From positions 1,176,503 through 1,240,502 of the forward strand of contig NZ_LT592171.1 in NCBI RefSeq assembly GCF_900088825.1: a DNA stretch of 64,000 nucleotides, in the 5' to 3' direction. The notes beneath the pieces are model-generated. The model was not told the DNA's origin, did no database searches, and was given only the letters and a program-made list of their open reading frames with translations. The stretch is from Thiomonas delicata (lineage in GTDB: Bacteria; Pseudomonadota; Gammaproteobacteria; Burkholderiales; Burkholderiaceae_C). Positions 18,871 to 26,039 of this stretch are shown piece after piece (within the stretch, counting starts at the first letter, position 1; every line of letters starts with the position of its first letter). A program made the translations under genes and the position numbers.

Positions 18871-20874
18871 ATGGACGCCCCCTTGCTGCTGCCCGTTGCT
18901 TTGGGTGTCGTCCTGGGCTGGGGTTTGATCGGGCTGGCTGGCTTGCTGGCGCCACAGTCCACGCGCTGGGTCGCGCATGGCGTATTTCCCCTTGGCGCCC
19001 TGGGTAGTGCGGTATTGGCCGGCGTAGGGCTCCTGGCGCTGTTCGCGCCGGCGTCTTCGCTGACCCTGCCAATCGGCTTGCCGGGGCTACCCATGCATTT
19101 GCGGCTGGACGCGCTGTCCGGTTTTTTCCTGTTCCTGCTCGGCGCATCCAGCATCGGCATTTCGGTGTTCGCAGCGGGCTATTTCCGTTCAGGCGAAGGC
19201 ACCGCCCCGGGCCTGCTCGGCTTGCAATATCACATCTTTCTGGCTGCCATGGCCATGGTGCTGCTGGCCGCCGACGCCTATGCCTTCATGCTGGCGTGGG
19301 AAGTCATGGCGCTGTCGTCCTACTTCCTGGTCGTGAGCCAGCATCGCCTTCCGGAGATCCGCAGCGCCGGTTTCGTCTACCTTCTGCTCGCGCATTTGGG
19401 TGCCATCGCTCTGCTGCTGTGCTTCGGGGTGATGATGCAGGGCGGGGGCAGCGGGCTGACCTTCGATGCGATGCGCCAGGCCCATCTTTCGCCCGCCTGG
19501 GCCACGGTGGCTTTCGGCCTCGCCGTGGCCGGGTTCGGTGCCAAGGCCGGACTGGTTCCCTTGCATATCTGGCTGCCCGAGGCGCACCCCGCCGCCCCGT
19601 CGCCGGTGTCGGCGCTGATGAGCGGGGTCATGCTGAAGACGGCGTTGTACGGCCTGCTACGGGTGAGCTTCGACTTGCTGCACGCGCCGCTGTGGTGGTG
19701 GGGCGTGCCGCTGCTGGCGCTGGGCCTGTTCGGTGCGCTGTTCGGCGCGTTGTTCGCCGCAGTGCAAACCGATATGAAGCGACTGCTGGCGTATTCCTCC
19801 ATCGAGAACATCGGCATCGCGTTTGCGGCGCTTGGCCTGGCTCTGGTGTTCCATGGCATCGGCATGCCCGCGCTGGCCGCGCTGGCGCTGGCGGCCATGC
19901 TGTACCACGTCCTCAATCATGCCTTTTTCAAGAGCCTGCTGTTCCTCGCCACGGGCTCCGTGCTGCATGCAACCCACCAACGCAGCCTGGGACGGCTTGG
20001 CGGCCTGCTGCGGCGCATGCCGTGGGTCGGCTGGACGGCCTTGGTTGGCACCCTGGCCATCGCCGGACTACCGCCGCTCAACGGTTTCGTGGCGGAGTGG
20101 CTGCTGCTGCAGGCTTTTCTGTTCACGCCGGGTATTTCCAAGCCCTTCTTCGGCATGCTCATCCCGCTGGGGGCTGCCGTTCTGGCGCTCACCGCGGCGT
20201 TGGGGGGCTATGTGATGGTGAAGTTCTACGGCGTGATTTTTCTCGGCCGTGCGCGCGAACCGGAACTGGAACATGCGCATGACGCCGGTCTCTTGGAGCG
20301 CGCCGGTCTGGTGTGGCTTGCGGCGGGCTGCGTGCTGCTCGGGCTGTTGCCGGGTCTGGTGCTGCAGGCCATCGACCGCGTCAGCCTGCAGCTTCTTGGC
20401 CATGGACTCGCACGGACCGGCAATTGGACCTGGCTGGTGCCAACGTCGCCCCAGCGGGCAGCCTATAACCCGGTGGTCGTGCTGCTGGTCGGGCTGCTGG
20501 TTATCGGCTTCACGTTCTTGGTCACGCATCGGGTTTTCGCCGGTCGTACGCGCCGCGCCGAAGCCTGGGGCTGCGGAGCCACGGGCCTGACACCGCGCAT
20601 GCAGGACACGGCCGAGGGCATGGGCCAGCCGATCCGCAGATTGTTTGCCCCGTTCTACCAGACTCGCGTGGATCTGCCGGCCCCGACCGACGCGGCTCCG
20701 CGCTACCGCGTGGTGGTGCTCGACCGTTTCTGGGCGCAACTCTACATGCCCCTGGCCGATGCGGTGCTGTGGCTGGCCCGCCAGATCGGACGCATCCAGC
20801 AGGGGCGCATTGCGGTCTACCTCTTCTACAGCTTCATCACTCTGCTGGTGTTGCTGATGGTGGTCGTGCGATGA
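18871..20874 (+). CDS. hyfB: hydrogenase-4 / complex I-like membrane subunit (HyfB, NuoL-type)
   Basis: Antiporter-like proton-channel subunit, 667 residues, about 14-16 hydrophobic segments, first gene of the operon. It carries the family features: the acidic MLAWEVMALSSYFLV helix, GFGAKAGLVPLHIWLPEAHPAAPSPVSALMSG split around the central lysine and histidine, and TDMKRLLAYSSIENIG. The C-terminal extension resembles HyfB/HycC rather than NuoL, since it lacks the long lateral helix. The gene symbol reflects homology only; this operon is not a functional hydrogenase by its ligand residues (see the HyfG-like entry). It ends in an ATGA overlap with the next gene. Confidence 0.85.
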   Translation: MDAPLLLPVALGVVLGWGLIGLAGLLAPQSTRWVAHGVFPLGALGSAVLAGVGLLALFAPASSLTLPIGLPGLPMHLRLDALSGFFLFLLGASSIGISVFAAGYFRSGEGTAPGLLGLQYHIFLAAMAMVLLAADAYAFMLAWEVMALSSYFLVVSQHRLPEIRSAGFVYLLLAHLGAIALLLCFGVMMQGGGSGLTFDAMRQAHLSPAWATVAFGLAVAGFGAKAGLVPLHIWLPEAHPAAPSPVSALMSGVMLKTALYGLLRVSFDLLHAPLWWWGVPLLALGLFGALFGALFAAVQTDMKRLLAYSSIENIGIAFAALGLALVFHGIGMPALAALALAAMLYHVLNHAFFKSLLFLATGSVLHATHQRSLGRLGGLLRRMPWVGWTALVGTLAIAGLPPLNGFVAEWLLLQAFLFTPGISKPFFGMLIPLGAAVLALTAALGGYVMVKFYGVIFLGRAREPELEHAHDAGLLERAGLVWLAAGCVLLGLLPGLVLQAIDRVSLQLLGHGLARTGNWTWLVPTSPQRAAYNPVVVLLVGLLVIGFTFLVTHRVFAGRTRRAEAWGCGATGLTPRMQDTAEGMGQPIRRLFAPFYQTRVDLPAPTDAAPRYRVVVLDRFWAQLYMPLADAVLWLARQIGRIQQGRIAVYLFYSFITLLVLLMVVVR

Positions 20875-21821
20875 GTGCCGCGGCCTTGTTCACGCAGCTG
20901 CTGGCGGTATTGGCTTCGGTGGCGCTGGCGCCGCTGTTCCTCGGCTGGGTGAATCAGTGCCGCGCCTGGCTCGCCAATCGCACCGCGCCGCCCTTGTGGC
21001 TGCCCTACCTGCGCTTGCGCAAGCTGCTGCACAAGGACGTCGTGCTGGCGCACGAGGCTACGCCTTTGTTTCGCGCCGTGCCCTACATGCTGTTCGGCAT
21101 CATGGTGGCCGCCGCGGCCATCATTCCCTCGCTCAGTACCGATCTGCCCTTTGCCTCGGCGGCGGATGCCATCGCATTGGTCGGTCTGTTCGCGCTGGCG
21201 CGGGTGTTCATTGCGCTGGCCGGCATGGACATCGGCACCGCTTTCGGCAGCATGGGGGCGCGGCGCGAGATGATGGTGGGCTTCCTCGCCGAGCCGGCTC
21301 TGCTGATGGTGCTGTTCACGGCTTCGCTGATCACCGGCAGCACGCTGTTACCCGTGATCGCCGACACGTTGCAATCGCGGGCCCTGGCCATCCATGCCAG
21401 CCTGGCCTTCGCGGCGGTGGCCTTCGTCATGGTGCTGCTCGCCGAGAATGCGCGCATTCCGGTGGACAACCCGGCCACGCACCTGGAACTCACGATGATT
21501 CACGAGGCCATGGTGCTGGAGTATTCGGCGCGCCACCTCGCGCTGGTGGAATGGGCCAGCGCGTTGAAGCTGTTCAATTACGCCTGCATCGGCTTTGCCC
21601 TGTTCCTGCCTTGGGGCATGGCCAGCCGTGCCGATGGCATCCTATGGTTGTTGCCCGCGATTCCGCCGCTGCTCATCAAGCTCGCGGCGGCGGGCTTGGT
21701 CATCGCGCTGATCGAAACCCTGAGTGCCAAGCTGCGCATTTTCCGTGCGCCGGAATTCCTGGCCACCGCCTTCCTGCTGGCGGTTCTTGGGTTGCTGGTG
21801 CATCTGACGCTGGAGCATTGA
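20871..21821 (+). CDS. hyfC: hydrogenase-4 / complex I-like membrane subunit (HyfC, NuoH-type)
   Basis: 316 residues, about eight hydrophobic segments. NuoH/HycD-type features are clear: PLWLPYLRLRKLLHKD near residue 42, the charged GTAFGSMGARREMMVGFLAEP loop and ENARIPVDNPATHLELTMIHEAMV, the segment that faces the peripheral arm. In complex I this subunit lines the quinone chamber; in Hyc/Hyf it links the electron-transfer arm to the proton channels. ATG 20871 overlaps the hyfB stop; a further in-frame upstream frame is only a non-coding extension. Confidence 0.85.
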   Translation: MSAAALFTQLLAVLASVALAPLFLGWVNQCRAWLANRTAPPLWLPYLRLRKLLHKDVVLAHEATPLFRAVPYMLFGIMVAAAAIIPSLSTDLPFASAADAIALVGLFALARVFIALAGMDIGTAFGSMGARREMMVGFLAEPALLMVLFTASLITGSTLLPVIADTLQSRALAIHASLAFAAVAFVMVLLAENARIPVDNPATHLELTMIHEAMVLEYSARHLALVEWASALKLFNYACIGFALFLPWGMASRADGILWLLPAIPPLLIKLAAAGLVIALIETLSAKLRIFRAPEFLATAFLLAVLGLLVHLTLEH

Positions 21822-21824
21822 GCC

Positions 21825-22526
21825 ATGCCGGCCGTCGCGACATCCATGGTTGGCAGCGTTGCTGCCGCGCTTCCGCTCAGCACCCAACTCATCCACTTGT
21901 TTGCCGCGGTGCTGCTGCTGCTGTCCTTTGCAATGCTGGCCCAGCGCCGCGTCGTCAACCTTGTGAATCTATTTGCCGGACAGGGCGCCGCCCTGGTGGC
22001 TTGCGCCGTGGTGGTCGGTTATTCGACCGGGCAGCCCGAGCTGTACACCTCAGCCGCCATCACCCTGGTGCTCAAGGTTTTGGTGCTGCCTTACATCCTG
22101 CACAAGCTCATCGGCAGGCTGCAGGTGGAGCGGGACACGGAGACCCTGGTGAACATTCCCACCATGCAGATCATCGGCATCCTGCTGGTGATCTTCGCCT
22201 TCGTGCTGGCGCAGCCGATCTCGCAATTTGCCGGCGCGGCCACGCGCAGCACCCTGGGCATCGCGCTGGCCGTGGTGTTCCTCGCCTTCCTGATGATGAT
22301 CGTGCGACGCAAGGCCATCGCCCAGGTGGTGGGTTTCCTGGCGATGGAAAACGGTCTGCTGTTCGCGGCGACCAGCGCCACGCACGGCATGCCCATGGTG
22401 GTGGAACTGGGCATCGGCCTGGACGTGCTGGTGGGCGTGTTCGTGCTGGGCATTTTCTTTTTCCAGATCCGCGAGCAATTCGACAGCCTCGATCTGCGGC
22501 ATCTGGAAACCCTGAAAGACGACTGA
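21825..22526 (+). CDS. hyfE: hydrogenase-4-like membrane subunit (HyfE, NuoK-related)
   Basis: 233 residues with about six to seven hydrophobic segments; E. coli HyfE is of similar size (about 216). The second half carries the NuoK-like stretch with VVGFLAMENGLLFAATSATHGMPMV, including the conserved buried Glu of MEN. It begins 3 nt after hyfC and its stop abuts the ATG of the next gene. There is no counterpart of HyfD, as in other reduced members of this group. Confidence 0.82.
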   Translation: MPAVATSMVGSVAAALPLSTQLIHLFAAVLLLLSFAMLAQRRVVNLVNLFAGQGAALVACAVVVGYSTGQPELYTSAAITLVLKVLVLPYILHKLIGRLQVERDTETLVNIPTMQIIGILLVIFAFVLAQPISQFAGAATRSTLGIALAVVFLAFLMMIVRRKAIAQVVGFLAMENGLLFAATSATHGMPMVVELGIGLDVLVGVFVLGIFFFQIREQFDSLDLRHLETLKDD

Positions 22527-23981
22527 ATGGACTTGCTCGCCGTTCTGGCCCTGCCGCTGCTTGGCGCCGCGATGCTGGCGTTTTTCGGCCATCGTCCTAT
22601 TGCGCCGCGCCTGAACCTGGCGGTGAGCGCAGCCACGTTCGTCGCCGCCTGCGTGCTGACCGCGGATGTCATCGCGCATGGGCCGATGCAGGTTCTGGCG
22701 GCCGAATTCTTCATCGATCCGTTCAACGTCTTCCTGGTCGCGCTGACGGCCTTCGTCGGCATGACCACGGCTGCTTTTTCGCGGCCCTATATGCGTATCG
22801 AGCAGGAGCATGGGCGGGTCGATGCGCGGCGCCTGCGGCTGTATCACAGCATGTACCAGCTGTTCATGTTCACCATGCTGCTGGCGCTGACCACGAACAA
22901 TATGGGCATACTCTGGGTGGCGATGGAGGCGGCCACGCTGTCCACCGTGCTGCTGGTGTCGCTGTACCGCACCGCGGCCAGCCTCGAGGCGGCGTGGAAA
23001 TACTTCATCCTCTGCGGCGTGGGCATCGCGCTGGCCTTGTTCGGCACCGTGCTGCTGTATTTCGCCGCCGAACGCGTGCTTGGCGCCGAAGGCATGAGCG
23101 CCTTGCTCTGGACCCACCTGAATGCGGTGAAGGGGCAGCTCGAACCCAGCATCATCGGCATCGCCTTCGTCTTCCTGCTGGTGGGCTATGGCACCAAGGT
23201 GGGACTGGTGCCGCTGCACAGCTGGCTGCCGGACGCGCACGCCGAAGGGCCCACGCCGGTCTCGGCCGTGCTGTCGGGGCTGCTGCTGAACGTGGCGCTG
23301 TACGCGGTGATGCGCTGCAAGGTGCTGGTGGACGGCGCGGTGCACGCCGCCTGGCCGGGACAGATGCTGATGGGTTTCGGCCTGCTCTCGGTGGTGGTCG
23401 GCGCTTTCCTGCTGTGGCGGCAAAAGGACGTCAAGCGCATGTTTGCCTACTCGTCCATCGAGCATATGGGCATCATCACCTTCGCTTTCGGCATGGGCGG
23501 CCCGGTGGCGAATTTCGCGGCCTTGCTGCACATGACGGGCCATGCACTGACCAAGAGCGCCATCTTTTTCACCACCGGCCACGCCACGCAAAAGGCCGGC
23601 ACGCAGCGCATGGACGACATCCAGGGGCTGCGCGAGCAGTCGCCGGCATTGGGCTGGGGGATGATGCTGGGGGCGCTGGCCATCGTCGGCATGCCGCCCT
23701 TCGGCGTGTTCGCCAGCGAGTTCCTCATCCTCACCACCGCGATGCAGACCCAGCCCTGGGCCACACCCATCCTGCTGCTGGCGCTGGGCGTGGCCTTCGG
23801 CGCCATCTTCATGCGCGTGCAGGGCATGGTGTTCGGGGCCAGCACCTTGCGCCGGCTTCCGCACCAGCCTGACATGCTGCCGGTGTTCGCCCATTTGGCG
23901 CTGGTGCTGCTGCTCGGTCTGTATGTCCCGACGTTCCTGGAATCGTGGTGGCATCTGGCCAGCAGCATGATCGGAGGATGA
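22527..23981 (+). CDS. hyfF: hydrogenase-4-like membrane subunit (HyfF, NuoN/M-type)
   Basis: A second antiporter-like proton-channel subunit, 484 residues, about 14 hydrophobic segments. Motifs include LWVAMEAATLSTVLLVSLY (acidic helix), GYGTKVGLVPLHSWLPDAHAEGPTPVSAVLSG and KDVKRMFAYSSIEHMGI. Together with HyfB it would give two complete proton channels. The end overlaps the region before the next gene, where a GGAGG at 23973-23977 serves as Shine-Dalgarno. Confidence 0.84.
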   Translation: MDLLAVLALPLLGAAMLAFFGHRPIAPRLNLAVSAATFVAACVLTADVIAHGPMQVLAAEFFIDPFNVFLVALTAFVGMTTAAFSRPYMRIEQEHGRVDARRLRLYHSMYQLFMFTMLLALTTNNMGILWVAMEAATLSTVLLVSLYRTAASLEAAWKYFILCGVGIALALFGTVLLYFAAERVLGAEGMSALLWTHLNAVKGQLEPSIIGIAFVFLLVGYGTKVGLVPLHSWLPDAHAEGPTPVSAVLSGLLLNVALYAVMRCKVLVDGAVHAAWPGQMLMGFGLLSVVVGAFLLWRQKDVKRMFAYSSIEHMGIITFAFGMGGPVANFAALLHMTGHALTKSAIFFTTGHATQKAGTQRMDDIQGLREQSPALGWGMMLGALAIVGMPPFGVFASEFLILTTAMQTQPWATPILLLALGVAFGAIFMRVQGMVFGASTLRRLPHQPDMLPVFAHLALVLLLGLYVPTFLESWWHLASSMIGG

Positions 23982-23986
23982 CGGCG

Positions 23987-25507
23987 ATGCGCGCACTGTG
24001 CTCCGGAATGGCGGTGGATCACCGCGTGGTGGACGCGCAGGGCTGGGCCGCGCTGGCGCAGCACATGCATGCGCAGGACGCGCGACTGTTGGCCCTGTGG
24101 GGCAGCGATACGCGCCTGCAGTGCGGTGGCTTCACTGTGCACGCCTGCTGGCTGCAGCGCGATGCGCTCACCCTGGCCGAGCTTGTGCTGGCCTGCGGCG
24201 TGACCCATTACCCGGCGTTGCACGCCTTGTTTCCGGTGGCCGACCGCCTGCAGCGCGCCTTGCGCGACTTGCTCGGCCTGCAGGCGCCGGGCATGGACTC
24301 GCGTCCTTGGCTGCGCCACACGGCCTGGGGCGCCGACGAATTCCCGCTGCGTCGCGATGCCCCCGAGCGCGGGCCCGAAAGGGCACCGGAAGCCGAGCGC
24401 TACGCCTTCGTTGCAGTGGATGGCGAAGGCGTGCACGAGATTTCCGTCGGCCCTGTCCACGCCGGCATCATCGAACCCGGGCAGTTTCGTTTTTCCGTCG
24501 TGGGCGAGAAGGTTTTGCGCCTGGAGCCGCGCCTGGGTTTCGCGCACAAGGGGGTGGAACGGCGTTTTCAGCAGCTGACCCTGAACGAGGGCGCAGGCCT
24601 GGCGGCGCGTCTGTGCGGCGACAGTGCCGCGGCCAACGCCTGGGCCTATTGCATGGCGCTGGAAACCTTGGCGGAGGTGAGGATTCCGCCGCGTGCCGGC
24701 GCCTTGCGAGCTTTGTTGCTGGAGCGCGAGCGTCTTGCCAACCACCTGGGCGACCTGGGTGCCATCGTCAACGACGCGGGTTTCGGCTTCGGCCTCGCGC
24801 AGTTCTCGCGGCTCAAGGAAGACCTGCTGCGCTTGAATGCGCGGGTGTTCGGCGCCCGCTACCCGATGGGCGCGATCCAGCCTGGCGGCGTGGCGTTCGA
24901 CCTGGACGACGACGCGCAGTCCATGCTGCGTACCCAGTGCGGCGTATTGCGCAGGGAGGTGGAGCGACTGAAGGTCATCCTCGACCAGCATGAGGGCCTG
25001 CAGGACCGGCTCGCCGCCACCGGCCGCGTCGCGCCCGATCTGGCGCGTCGCCTCGGCATGCTGGGTTTGGCGTCGCGCGCCAGCGGCCAGGCCCTGGACC
25101 TGCGGGCGATCCCAGGCCTCGCGCCGTACGACAAGCTGGGCGTGCGCATCGCGGTGGAGCAGGGTGGCGATGTCGCCGCGCGGGTGGCGGTGCGCTTCGC
25201 CGAGGTGTTCGAGTCATTGCGCCTGAGCCTCGCGCTGCTCGATGCCCTGCCCGAAGGGCCGCATATCCTGGCGCTGCCCGAGGTCATTGCCCCCGGACTG
25301 GCGCTGGGTGTGGTGGAAGGATGGCGCGGGCCGGCTTTCATCGCGCTGCAAGCCGGGGAGGGCGGACGCATCGCGCGCTGCCATCCGCATGATCCATCCT
25401 GGCAGAACTGGCCGGCGCTGGAGTGGATCATGGTCCAGGACATCGTGCCCGACTTCCCGCTGATCAACAAATCGTTCAACCTGTCCTATTCCGGACACGA
25501 TCGCTGA
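23987..25507 (+). CDS. hyfG: HyfG/NuoCD-like large subunit lacking nickel ligands
   Basis: 506 residues. About 1-170 match the NuoC-like domain and the rest the NuoD / [NiFe]-hydrogenase large-subunit fold (EPGQFRFSVVGEKVLRLEPRLGFAHKGVER). The first CxxC of group 4 hydrogenases is replaced by CGDS (Cys210, Ser213). The C-terminal DPCxxC is replaced by NLSYSGHDR (Ser500, Gly503), and the protein ends there with the NuoD-like ..DR. No [NiFe] site can form, so this is an Ehr-type (hydrogenase-related) or complex-I-like protein. ATG 23987 was chosen for the GGAGG 9 nt upstream; ATG 23978, overlapping the hyfF stop, is the alternative. Confidence 0.85.
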   Translation: MRALCSGMAVDHRVVDAQGWAALAQHMHAQDARLLALWGSDTRLQCGGFTVHACWLQRDALTLAELVLACGVTHYPALHALFPVADRLQRALRDLLGLQAPGMDSRPWLRHTAWGADEFPLRRDAPERGPERAPEAERYAFVAVDGEGVHEISVGPVHAGIIEPGQFRFSVVGEKVLRLEPRLGFAHKGVERRFQQLTLNEGAGLAARLCGDSAAANAWAYCMALETLAEVRIPPRAGALRALLLERERLANHLGDLGAIVNDAGFGFGLAQFSRLKEDLLRLNARVFGARYPMGAIQPGGVAFDLDDDAQSMLRTQCGVLRREVERLKVILDQHEGLQDRLAATGRVAPDLARRLGMLGLASRASGQALDLRAIPGLAPYDKLGVRIAVEQGGDVAARVAVRFAEVFESLRLSLALLDALPEGPHILALPEVIAPGLALGVVEGWRGPAFIALQAGEGGRIARCHPHDPSWQNWPALEWIMVQDIVPDFPLINKSFNLSYSGHDR

Positions 25508-25520
25508 GGAACCCCGCATC

Positions 25521-26039
25521 ATGTGGAAAACCCTGCGCCAGATCGCCCGCGTCGGCCGCATCAGCGAAACCACGCACGCCGCGAGCATGGCCGTCGAGGC
25601 CGCGGACAAGTCGGATGCGCAGGCCGAGCTGCTGCGCATTCTTGGCCGCGCGCTGGCCATCCGGGTGGTCGATGCCGGCTCGTGCAACGGCTGCGAGCTG
25701 GAGATCCAAGCGCTGTCGAATCCCTACTACAACCTCGAAGGCCTGGGGCTGCAGTTCGTCGCCAGCCCGCGGCATGCGGACATGCTGCTGGTCACCGGCC
25801 CGGTTTCGCGCCACATGGAGCTGGCCTTGCGGCGCACCTATGAAGCCATGCCCGAGCCGCGGCTGGTGGTGGCCGCTGGGGAGTGCGCGTGCACGGGAGG
25901 CGTGTTCGGCGAAAGCTATGCGAGTTGCGGGCGGGTGGGGAACGTCCTGCCGGTGGACGTCACCGTGGCGGGCTGTCCGCCCAGTCCGCAGGCCTTGCTC
26001 GAGGGCATTTTGCGAGCCGTGCGGCGCCAGGCCCGATGA
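25521..26039 (+). CDS. hyfI: HyfI/NuoB-like [4Fe-4S] small subunit
   Basis: 172 residues, the small subunit partner of the HyfG-like protein. All four expected ligands for one proximal/N2-type [4Fe-4S] cluster are present: Cys55 and Cys58 in SCNGCE, Cys122 in GECACTGG and Cys152 in GCPPSP. The spaced CxxC is hydrogenase-like, unlike the tandem Cys of NuoB. So an electron-carrying cluster is kept while the nickel site is lost. No ferredoxin-like subunit (HyfA/HyfH/NuoI) is encoded before or after, so the electron donor is unknown. A GAGG lies about 10 nt before ATG 25521. Confidence 0.86.
   Translation: MWKTLRQIARVGRISETTHAASMAVEAADKSDAQAELLRILGRALAIRVVDAGSCNGCELEIQALSNPYYNLEGLGLQFVASPRHADMLLVTGPVSRHMELALRRTYEAMPEPRLVVAAGECACTGGVFGESYASCGRVGNVLPVDVTVAGCPPSPQALLEGILRAVRRQAR

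Follow-up and report, generated by a model that had tools for sequence, protein, structure and literature searches.

The window analysed here, a 64,000-nucleotide stretch of a Thiomonas delicata genome (contig NZ_LT592171.1), carries a tight plus-strand operon of six genes, hyfB-C-E-F-G-I (18871-26039; intergenic gaps of -4, 3, 0, -4 and 13 nt), which is a further member of the published nickel-less hyfBCEFGI "non-hydrogenase" or energy-converting hydrogenase-related (Ehr) class. It is near certain that the encoded complex is not a hydrogenase. Its large subunit has lost the nickel site as well as the quinone ligands of complex I, its Fe-S site is invariant and its membrane channels are conserved, and by homology it is likely to be an ion-translocating redox complex. 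The new part is the gene context in relatives, where the operon is linked to SulP permeases, carbonic anhydrases and RuBisCO, and which points to inorganic-carbon metabolism. A tentative reading, put forward with reserve, is that of a nickel-less, redox-driven, complex-I-like ion pump, which might support inorganic-carbon acquisition in autotrophs. The components, with subunit names taken from NCBIfam and Pfam profiles, are as follows:

18871..20874, plus strand: hyfB-like, encoding the large antiporter-like (proton channel) subunit of 667 amino acids (aa); scores 867 bits with NF005086 (hydrogenase 4 subunit B), above the cut-off of 667.
20871..21821, plus strand: hyfC-like, 316 aa, NuoH-like membrane anchor; PF00146, 100 bits.
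21825..22526, plus strand: hyfE-like, encoding a small membrane subunit of 233 aa; its 91.9 bits with NF008556 (hydrogenase 4 membrane subunit) fall short of the cut-off of 136.
22527..23981, plus strand: hyfF-like, encoding a second antiporter-like subunit of 484 aa; scores 862 bits with NF005045 (hydrogenase 4 subunit F), above the cut-off of 543.
23978..25507, plus strand: hyfG-like, 509 aa, NuoC+NuoD-like large subunit without nickel site; phmmer against 7z0s_E, 5e-61.
24614..24625, plus strand: HyfG CGDS, residues 213-216, at the position of the first nickel CxxC.
25478..25504, plus strand: HyfG NLSYSGHDR, residues 501-509, C-terminal, at the position of the second nickel CxxC, with no C-terminal extension.
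25521..26039, plus strand: hyfI-like, 172 aa, NuoB-like, with one [4Fe-4S] site (Cys55, 58, 122, 152); PF01058, 107.9 bits.

Inspection of HyfG begins with its closest solved relative by sequence, HycE of the E. coli formate hydrogenlyase (7z0s_E, E-value 5e-61), to which it aligns through the C and D domains. In this alignment CGDS stands against the CGIC of E. coli HycE and HyfG, and NLSYSGHDR against DPCYSCTDR, such that neither of the two CxxC pairs (CGIC, DPCxxC) of group 4 [NiFe] hydrogenases is present and one of the four nickel cysteines is kept. The first-pass annotation of this DNA had described the same loss as Cys210/Ser213 and Ser500/Gly503, in a numbering that starts at a Met three codons downstream of the 23978 start; read from 23978, these residues are Cys213/Ser216 and Ser503/Gly506. 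Further, the chain stops where HycE has the DR of DPCYSCTDR, and HycE extends beyond this point, into a tail that is cleaved off during nickel insertion. In the family alignment (152 rows, that of the window counted), 124 rows read SGDS at the first motif and five, the window's own among them, read CGDS, which indicates that loss of all four nickel cysteines is the usual state of the family. Additionally, Asp215 and Lys498 are each found in 152 of the 152 rows; the former is Ile in E. coli HycE and HyfG and Leu or Val in the two NuoD proteins compared, and the latter is Gly in these same proteins. Such invariance, at positions which differ from HycE, HyfG and NuoD, indicates that the HyfG site has been remodelled and is under selection, rather than having merely decayed. 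The positions of the NuoD His and Tyr, the quinone ligands of complex I, are occupied in HyfG by Ile165 and Gly214. An AlphaFold2 model of the HyfG monomer, built with 38 family sequences (predicted template-modelling (TM) score 0.86), matches 7z0s_E with a TM score of 0.85 by query length; its predicted local distance difference test values fall below 50 at residues 140-190 and 504-509, which makes the geometry of the former nickel site unreadable in this model.

A tree of 65 rows (43 family members, i.e., the window and 42 chosen at random, together with 22 others) places the window HyfG in a nickel-less clade of 55 rows, with a Shimodaira-Hasegawa-like approximate likelihood ratio test (SH-aLRT) value of 99, and outside a nickel-ligand group of eight rows (support 86) in which E. 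coli HycE and HyfG are joined by six further proteins with CGIC/DP-C-C; several long branches make the inner placements unsure. On account of this position outside Hyf/Hyc, the earlier proposal of an Ehr or minimal complex-I relative stands. The window protein is a group-4-like large subunit without nickel ligands, as in Ehr, an assignment made with the published Ehr, Mbx and Ech references left out of the tree. At least two further nickel-less lineages exist, one with RVSG[IV][DG]S and one with [VA]GD[ST] and FDLSYCGNDL. The former, which also shows FGL..AG.DR, has the gene order C-E-F-G-I-B (L216, L217, L218, L220, L221, L229, L230) and occurs in some genomes of the window's genus; in L220, CrcB and DUF190 genes come after. 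Two nickel-less hyf operons, each of its own lineage, share plasmid 3 of Variovorax sp. PBL-E5 (L058 8828-16012 and 1-5416), where genes for a spermidine-synthase-like protein and for universal stress protein also lie close.

In the small subunit, HyfI, the retention of all four [4Fe-4S] ligands noted from the sequence is borne out by the alignment, Cys55, Cys58, Cys122 and Cys152 each being kept in 143 of 143 homologues. The motif aligns gap-free, with its four Cys, to MbhJ and is of the hydrogenase-type CxxC, as against the tandem CC of the complex I NuoB. Likewise, two full proton-channel subunits are present as had been claimed, namely the antiporter-like HyfB and HyfF: HyfB Glu144, Lys225, Lys303, His350 and Glu409 are 98-100% conserved (134 aligned), and the channel residues of HyfF (136 aligned) and the charged residues of HyfC (137 aligned) are nearly invariant.

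The coupling of the six genes and their B-C-E-F-G-I order, also recognized at the outset, agree with the coordinates and with the NCBIfam and Pfam profiles, HyfE lying under its curated cut-off. The claim that ferredoxin and hyp maturation genes are missing holds for the operon, which is without HyfA, HyfD, HyfH or a maturation gene and without NuoE/F/G/I genes; for hyp it covers the operon and its neighbours, and NiFe hydrogenase genes do occur elsewhere in the genome. The latter are large-subunit genes, accompanied by a HycI-type protease, at 621428-635478 of contig C4 of the same genome (G000), a different contig from that of the window. A BLASTN search with hyfC against E. coli genomes gave zero matches.

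The family is widespread, being carried by 80 of 300 sampled genomes of the order (best E-value 5e-80 or lower) and 63 of 398 of the phylum (matches of at least 39% identity), and complexes of its kind are filed in papers as "hydrogenase" or "function unknown". Left out of the order counts are G297, of another lineage at 36% identity, and the weaker matches of the NuoD and second-lineage kinds; the phylum counts exclude ten genomes matching at 31-32%, those sampled being CGIC hydrogenases, and two with NuoD-like matches. Within the window's genus group, 28 of 28 genomes have a HyfG match of at least 59% identity, the match being partial in two, and the 15 HyfG relatives in a titled genome collection are Thiomonas records and metagenome-assembled genomes titled Proteobacteria, Betaproteobacteria or Burkholderiales. 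Plasmid copies are found in Cupriavidus, Burkholderia, Rhizobium, Azospirillum and others, from a search that matched 226 records at any similarity, other kinds of relatives included.

For the gene context, genes were called and clustered in 141 loci with a minimum length of 8 kb (139 distinct, two pairs being the same place twice). About 20 of these come from the window's genus and ten from plasmid records, the window is itself one of them, and the loci are mutually related; the simple gene caller recovered B-C-E-F-G-I ungapped in 63 of the 141. The largest flanking cluster is that of the SulP anion (bicarbonate/sulfate) permease (PF00916 with STAS), which narrowly outranks MetG and occurs in 21 of 139 loci, from 20 genomes of eight family groups, one of another class; L126, with a STAS domain only, was left out. 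Of the 23 SulP genes near hyf, 19 are on the hyf strand and 14 directly upstream, and the gap between SulP and hyfB is 20-34 nt in five loci. In 39 genomes picked for contig room before SulP was noticed, SulP lies within 10 kb of hyfG in ten, where SulP number and genome size would predict 0.5; this 10/39 is the unbiased figure, a count of 19/48 being biased by nine genomes that had been added because of SulP. Three loci (L100 2001-4124, L114 1485-4238, L115 1843-4014) encode SulP proteins of 700-900 aa, in which an insert splits the permease match in two.

Further, a CcmM-like gamma-carbonic anhydrase is found in seven of the 139 loci, five of these also with SulP, and lies 10 nt before hyfB in two; in an eighth genome (L235) it is about 12 kb from hyfG. 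It is a 186-aa hexapeptide protein which scores 131.6 bits with the CcmM model (the cut-off of 550 is for a longer protein), and its three His, read by eye, follow the gamma-class pattern. A CsoSCA-like anhydrase of 353 aa is near hyf in five genomes (PF20686 at 30-35 bits in the three scanned, cut-off 21.5), and the one read, that of L231, has CMDGR (CxDxR) and HRGC (HxxC). In total, a CcmM-like or CsoSCA-like anhydrase is near hyf in 12 genomes from six family groups. The order in L231 is SulP, hyfBCEFGI, CsoSCA-like, GGDEF/EAL, LysR, cbbL, cbbS, cbbQ, and L232 follows the same plan, its anhydrase, LysR and cbbL having been checked. RuBisCO is 7.9 kb from hyfG in these two loci and 13 to 26 kb from it in at least four more genomes.

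An association with RuBisCO is also apparent in genome content. RuBisCO, called at an E-value below 1e-100 with weaker RuBisCO-like matches dropped (20/130 genomes), is present in 56 of the 80 hyf-positive and 54 of the 220 hyf-negative genomes of the order (odds ratio (OR) 7.2, p 2e-12). Within the 20 families having both states the Mantel-Haenszel OR is 6.5 (p 0.001), with nine families higher, two lower and nine tied; as the sampled genomes are related to each other, these p values overstate the case. The phylum sample gives 37/63 hyf-positive versus 55/335 hyf-negative genomes with RuBisCO, and 15/32 versus 25/305 once the listed members of the dominant family are removed, a count in which dominant-family members with neither gene remain. 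RuBisCO is found in nine of the ten genomes with SulP within 10 kb of hyfG, as compared with 26 of the 39 overall.

Several observations weigh against a carbon role. The linkage to bicarbonate carriers, carbonic anhydrase and RuBisCO is seen in part of the relatives and not at the window itself, where hyf is flanked by DusA, MnmH and a Liv-type ABC transporter. In the window's own genome (3.84 Mb) RuBisCO and DabA are 255-260 kb from hyf, and neither SulP nor a PF00484 anhydrase was found; SulP was likewise not seen in 23 of the 28 genomes of the genus, some of which are incomplete. Across the survey SulP is limited to the 21 loci, and 24 of the 80 hyf-positive genomes have no RuBisCO. The lack of SulP in most genomes of the genus, and the presence of hyf in genomes without RuBisCO, indicate that SulP is not an obligate partner; moreover, it could be a sulfate carrier, and linkage is not mechanism. 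The classical beta-carbonic anhydrase (PF00484) was near hyf in 0/39 genomes, though 22/39 have one, and was rejected as a hyf neighbour. DabA shows no association with hyf (18/80 hyf-positive versus 46/220 hyf-negative, OR 1.1), for which reason a DAB partnership was rejected. MetG, a housekeeping gene, stands beside hyf in 19 loci, from nine family groups of the order that are other than or overlap those of SulP; being nearly as frequent as SulP, it weakens the adjacency argument, since shared old gene order can yield such counts. The Burkholderia, Azospirillum and Rhizobium plasmid copies of hyf lie among unrelated genes. A general ion pump may have carbon acquisition as one of its uses.

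ApbC is beside hyf in 13 loci, and the adjacency of MetG and ApbC, which occurs in other genomes than SulP, is read as old gene order and not partnership. MetG and the Fe-S carrier ATPase ApbC, by Pfam name kin to the complex-I assembly factor NUBPL, jointly flank hyf in eleven loci, which belong to several families other than those with SulP (L101, L106, L117, L124, L125, L129, L166, L175, L176, L183, L184). Other recurrent neighbours were not accepted as partners: histidine kinases (19 loci), which form a large superfamily; helix-turn-helix (HTH) or HTH/cupin regulators, found in 14 and 16 loci and for the most part outside the order; cobalamin adenosyltransferase (eight loci); and a spermidine-synthase-like gene (11 loci: L009, L016, L057, L058, L059, L066, L122, L128, L147, L148, L203). 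On a Methylovirgula plasmid (L062 1621-8183 and 16155-16673), hyf has a second F-type ATPase operon and a gene for a formaldehyde-activating enzyme as neighbours, and in L233 (13425-15353) a gene near hyf encodes a TauE/SafE permease with fused universal stress protein domains.

For the ion-pump reading, the electron flow, the ion pumped, the direction of coupling and the carbon role can be inferred along the following lines. The one [4Fe-4S] cluster of HyfI would be where electrons enter, or through which they run; HyfC and the remodelled HyfG site, with Asp215 and Lys498 near the lost nickel ligands, would couple the redox step to ion movement; and the ions would move through HyfB and HyfF. 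In autotrophic proteobacteria this movement would most likely aid inorganic-carbon acquisition. It could power bicarbonate import by SulP-type carriers, or, alternatively, protons could be drawn from carbonic anhydrase and CO2 trapped as bicarbonate, as proposed for the cyanobacterial NDH-1MS. The bolder form of this reading, in which hyfBCEFGI would be a redox-driven inorganic-carbon pump of chemolithoautotrophic proteobacteria, i.e., a hydrogenase-4 minus its catalytic metal, reused with SulP and unrelated carbonic anhydrases as a counterpart of NDH-1MS, appears somewhat unlikely.

Reverse electron transport, whereby a proton gradient would push electrons uphill to a low-potential acceptor and so provide reductant for CO2 fixation, is likewise doubtful. 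It would account for the RuBisCO association, and a similar idea has been proposed for an Acidithiobacillus ferrooxidans cluster tagged AFE2149-54 (PMC2621215; published accounts are cited here as far as their available excerpts go). However, it leaves the linkage to SulP and carbonic anhydrase unexplained, and a ferredoxin-type gene is seldom nearby: of the 732 flanking genes, counted up to three positions from hyf, two carry the CxxCxxCxxxC motif, both of one family at position +3. As a rule, therefore, no ferredoxin is encoded beside hyf, and a dedicated ferredoxin partner was rejected. A minimal quinone-reactive complex I, in which a soluble donor would reduce HyfI, electrons would pass to quinone and ions would be pumped for general energy conservation, is in keeping with the NuoD/NuoB/NuoH homology and suits heterotroph carriers. 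It is nonetheless quite unlikely, given Ile165 and Gly214 at the quinone-ligand positions of NuoD, and a HyfI CxxC of hydrogenase type in place of a tandem CC.

A role in pH or Na+ homeostasis, as a redox-driven Mrp-like antiporter with the SulP and anhydrase neighbours serving bicarbonate-based pH control, is improbable, although the antiporter-like subunits, the F-type ATPase operon adjoining hyf in Methylovirgula and the published acidophile carriers (PMC3826726) are all compatible with it. Such a role does not predict the RuBisCO association. Thiomonas are sulfur oxidisers, a point that would favour a sulfane-sulfur reductase like the archaeal MBS, with chemistry at the Fe-S cluster. The Pyrococcus furiosus MBS (PMC7684303, 6u8y), taken here by description, is complex-I-like and has lost nickel ligands, as has the window complex. 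However, its motif is three residues shorter, its cluster has three Cys and two nickel cysteines are retained, as against the HyfI alignment to MbhJ described above and the single nickel Cys of the window. In addition, the hyf family usually keeps no nickel cysteine and the operon is without an MbsN-like, ferredoxin-type subunit; this function is disfavoured on motif length and cysteines and seems very improbable. Finally, a functional [NiFe] hydrogenase-4, despite the gene names and homology, was rejected on motifs and tree and has practically nothing to commend it, three of the four nickel Cys being gone in the window and usually all four in the family, and the tree position being outside Hyf/Hyc.

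Were the tie between the ion pump and CO2 fixation true, the function could be tested directly in autotrophs amenable to genetics, such as Cupriavidus necator, annotations of hydrogen metabolism would be corrected, and energy-coupled carbon uptake of another kind could be added beside the cyanobacterial and DAB systems.

The published nickel-less hyfBCEFGI and Ehr clusters share with the window the gene set or the loss of nickel ligands. The gene set is described in C. metallidurans and C. necator, with a lithotrophic role doubted (PMC2864759), and in At. ferrooxidans, where HydDB rates the catalytic subunit as a non-hydrogenase (PMC7735108). Complexes without CxxC are described in Nitrospira (PMC10284858, PMC12542776), the latter paper naming the genes hyfBCDF, unlike the hyfBCEFGI of the window, and Ehr complexes without nickel ligands in Sulfobacillus (PMC4378227) and Riflemargulisbacteria (PMC6349859). 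The excerpts of these six papers give the function as unknown or doubtful, and elsewhere such operons are called putative hydrogenase or formate hydrogenlyase (PMC5596200, PMC4136832). The window HyfG is 54% identical to the plasmid-borne HyfG of C. metallidurans, the other published clusters being compared by description; it differs in keeping one of the four Cys. In the acidophile A. caldus, hyf lies beside a beta-carbonic anhydrase, with carbon-fixation genes, and was read as a hydrogenase (PMC3826726). Beyond this paper, a non-exhaustive search of open papers found hyf tied to carbon uptake nowhere in the text available, nor are the published nickel-less clusters tied there to SulP or inorganic-carbon uptake. 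Neither hyf nor hydrogenase occurs as a word in the main text of PMC6458275 or of PMC10880623, a review of carbon-uptake genes. The cbbM of At. ferrooxidans is AFE_2155 (PMC6458275), and as PMC2621215 and PMC6458275 share tags for SulP and its anhydrase, the hyf cluster of this organism would be adjacent to cbbM; this cluster is likened to the window family by its published description, not by sequence.

Among better-known systems, the DAB (DabA-DabB) carbonic anhydrase, driven by proton-motive force (PMC13144422), shares with the window complex a NuoL-like subunit and the carbonic-anhydrase theme in autotrophs; it differs in that DabA is located elsewhere in the window's genome and has no statistical association with hyf. 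The E. coli formate hydrogenlyase and hydrogenase-4 are alike in the fold and domain plan of HyfG (TM score 0.85) and in the homology of HyfB, C, E, F and I, whereas the window operon lacks the CxxC pairs, the C-terminal extension, HyfA, HyfD, HyfH and a maturation gene. From respiratory complex I the window complex is set apart by Ile165 and Gly214 in place of the NuoD His and Tyr, by CxxC in place of tandem Cys, and by an operon without NuoE/F/G/I. From the cyanobacterial NDH-1MS it differs in the loss of the quinone ligands. For NDH-1MS, removal of protons from CO2 hydration has been proposed to trap CO2 as bicarbonate, and the likeness, by analogy only and in published outline, is that of a complex-I-like ion-pumping core tied to the hydration of CO2.

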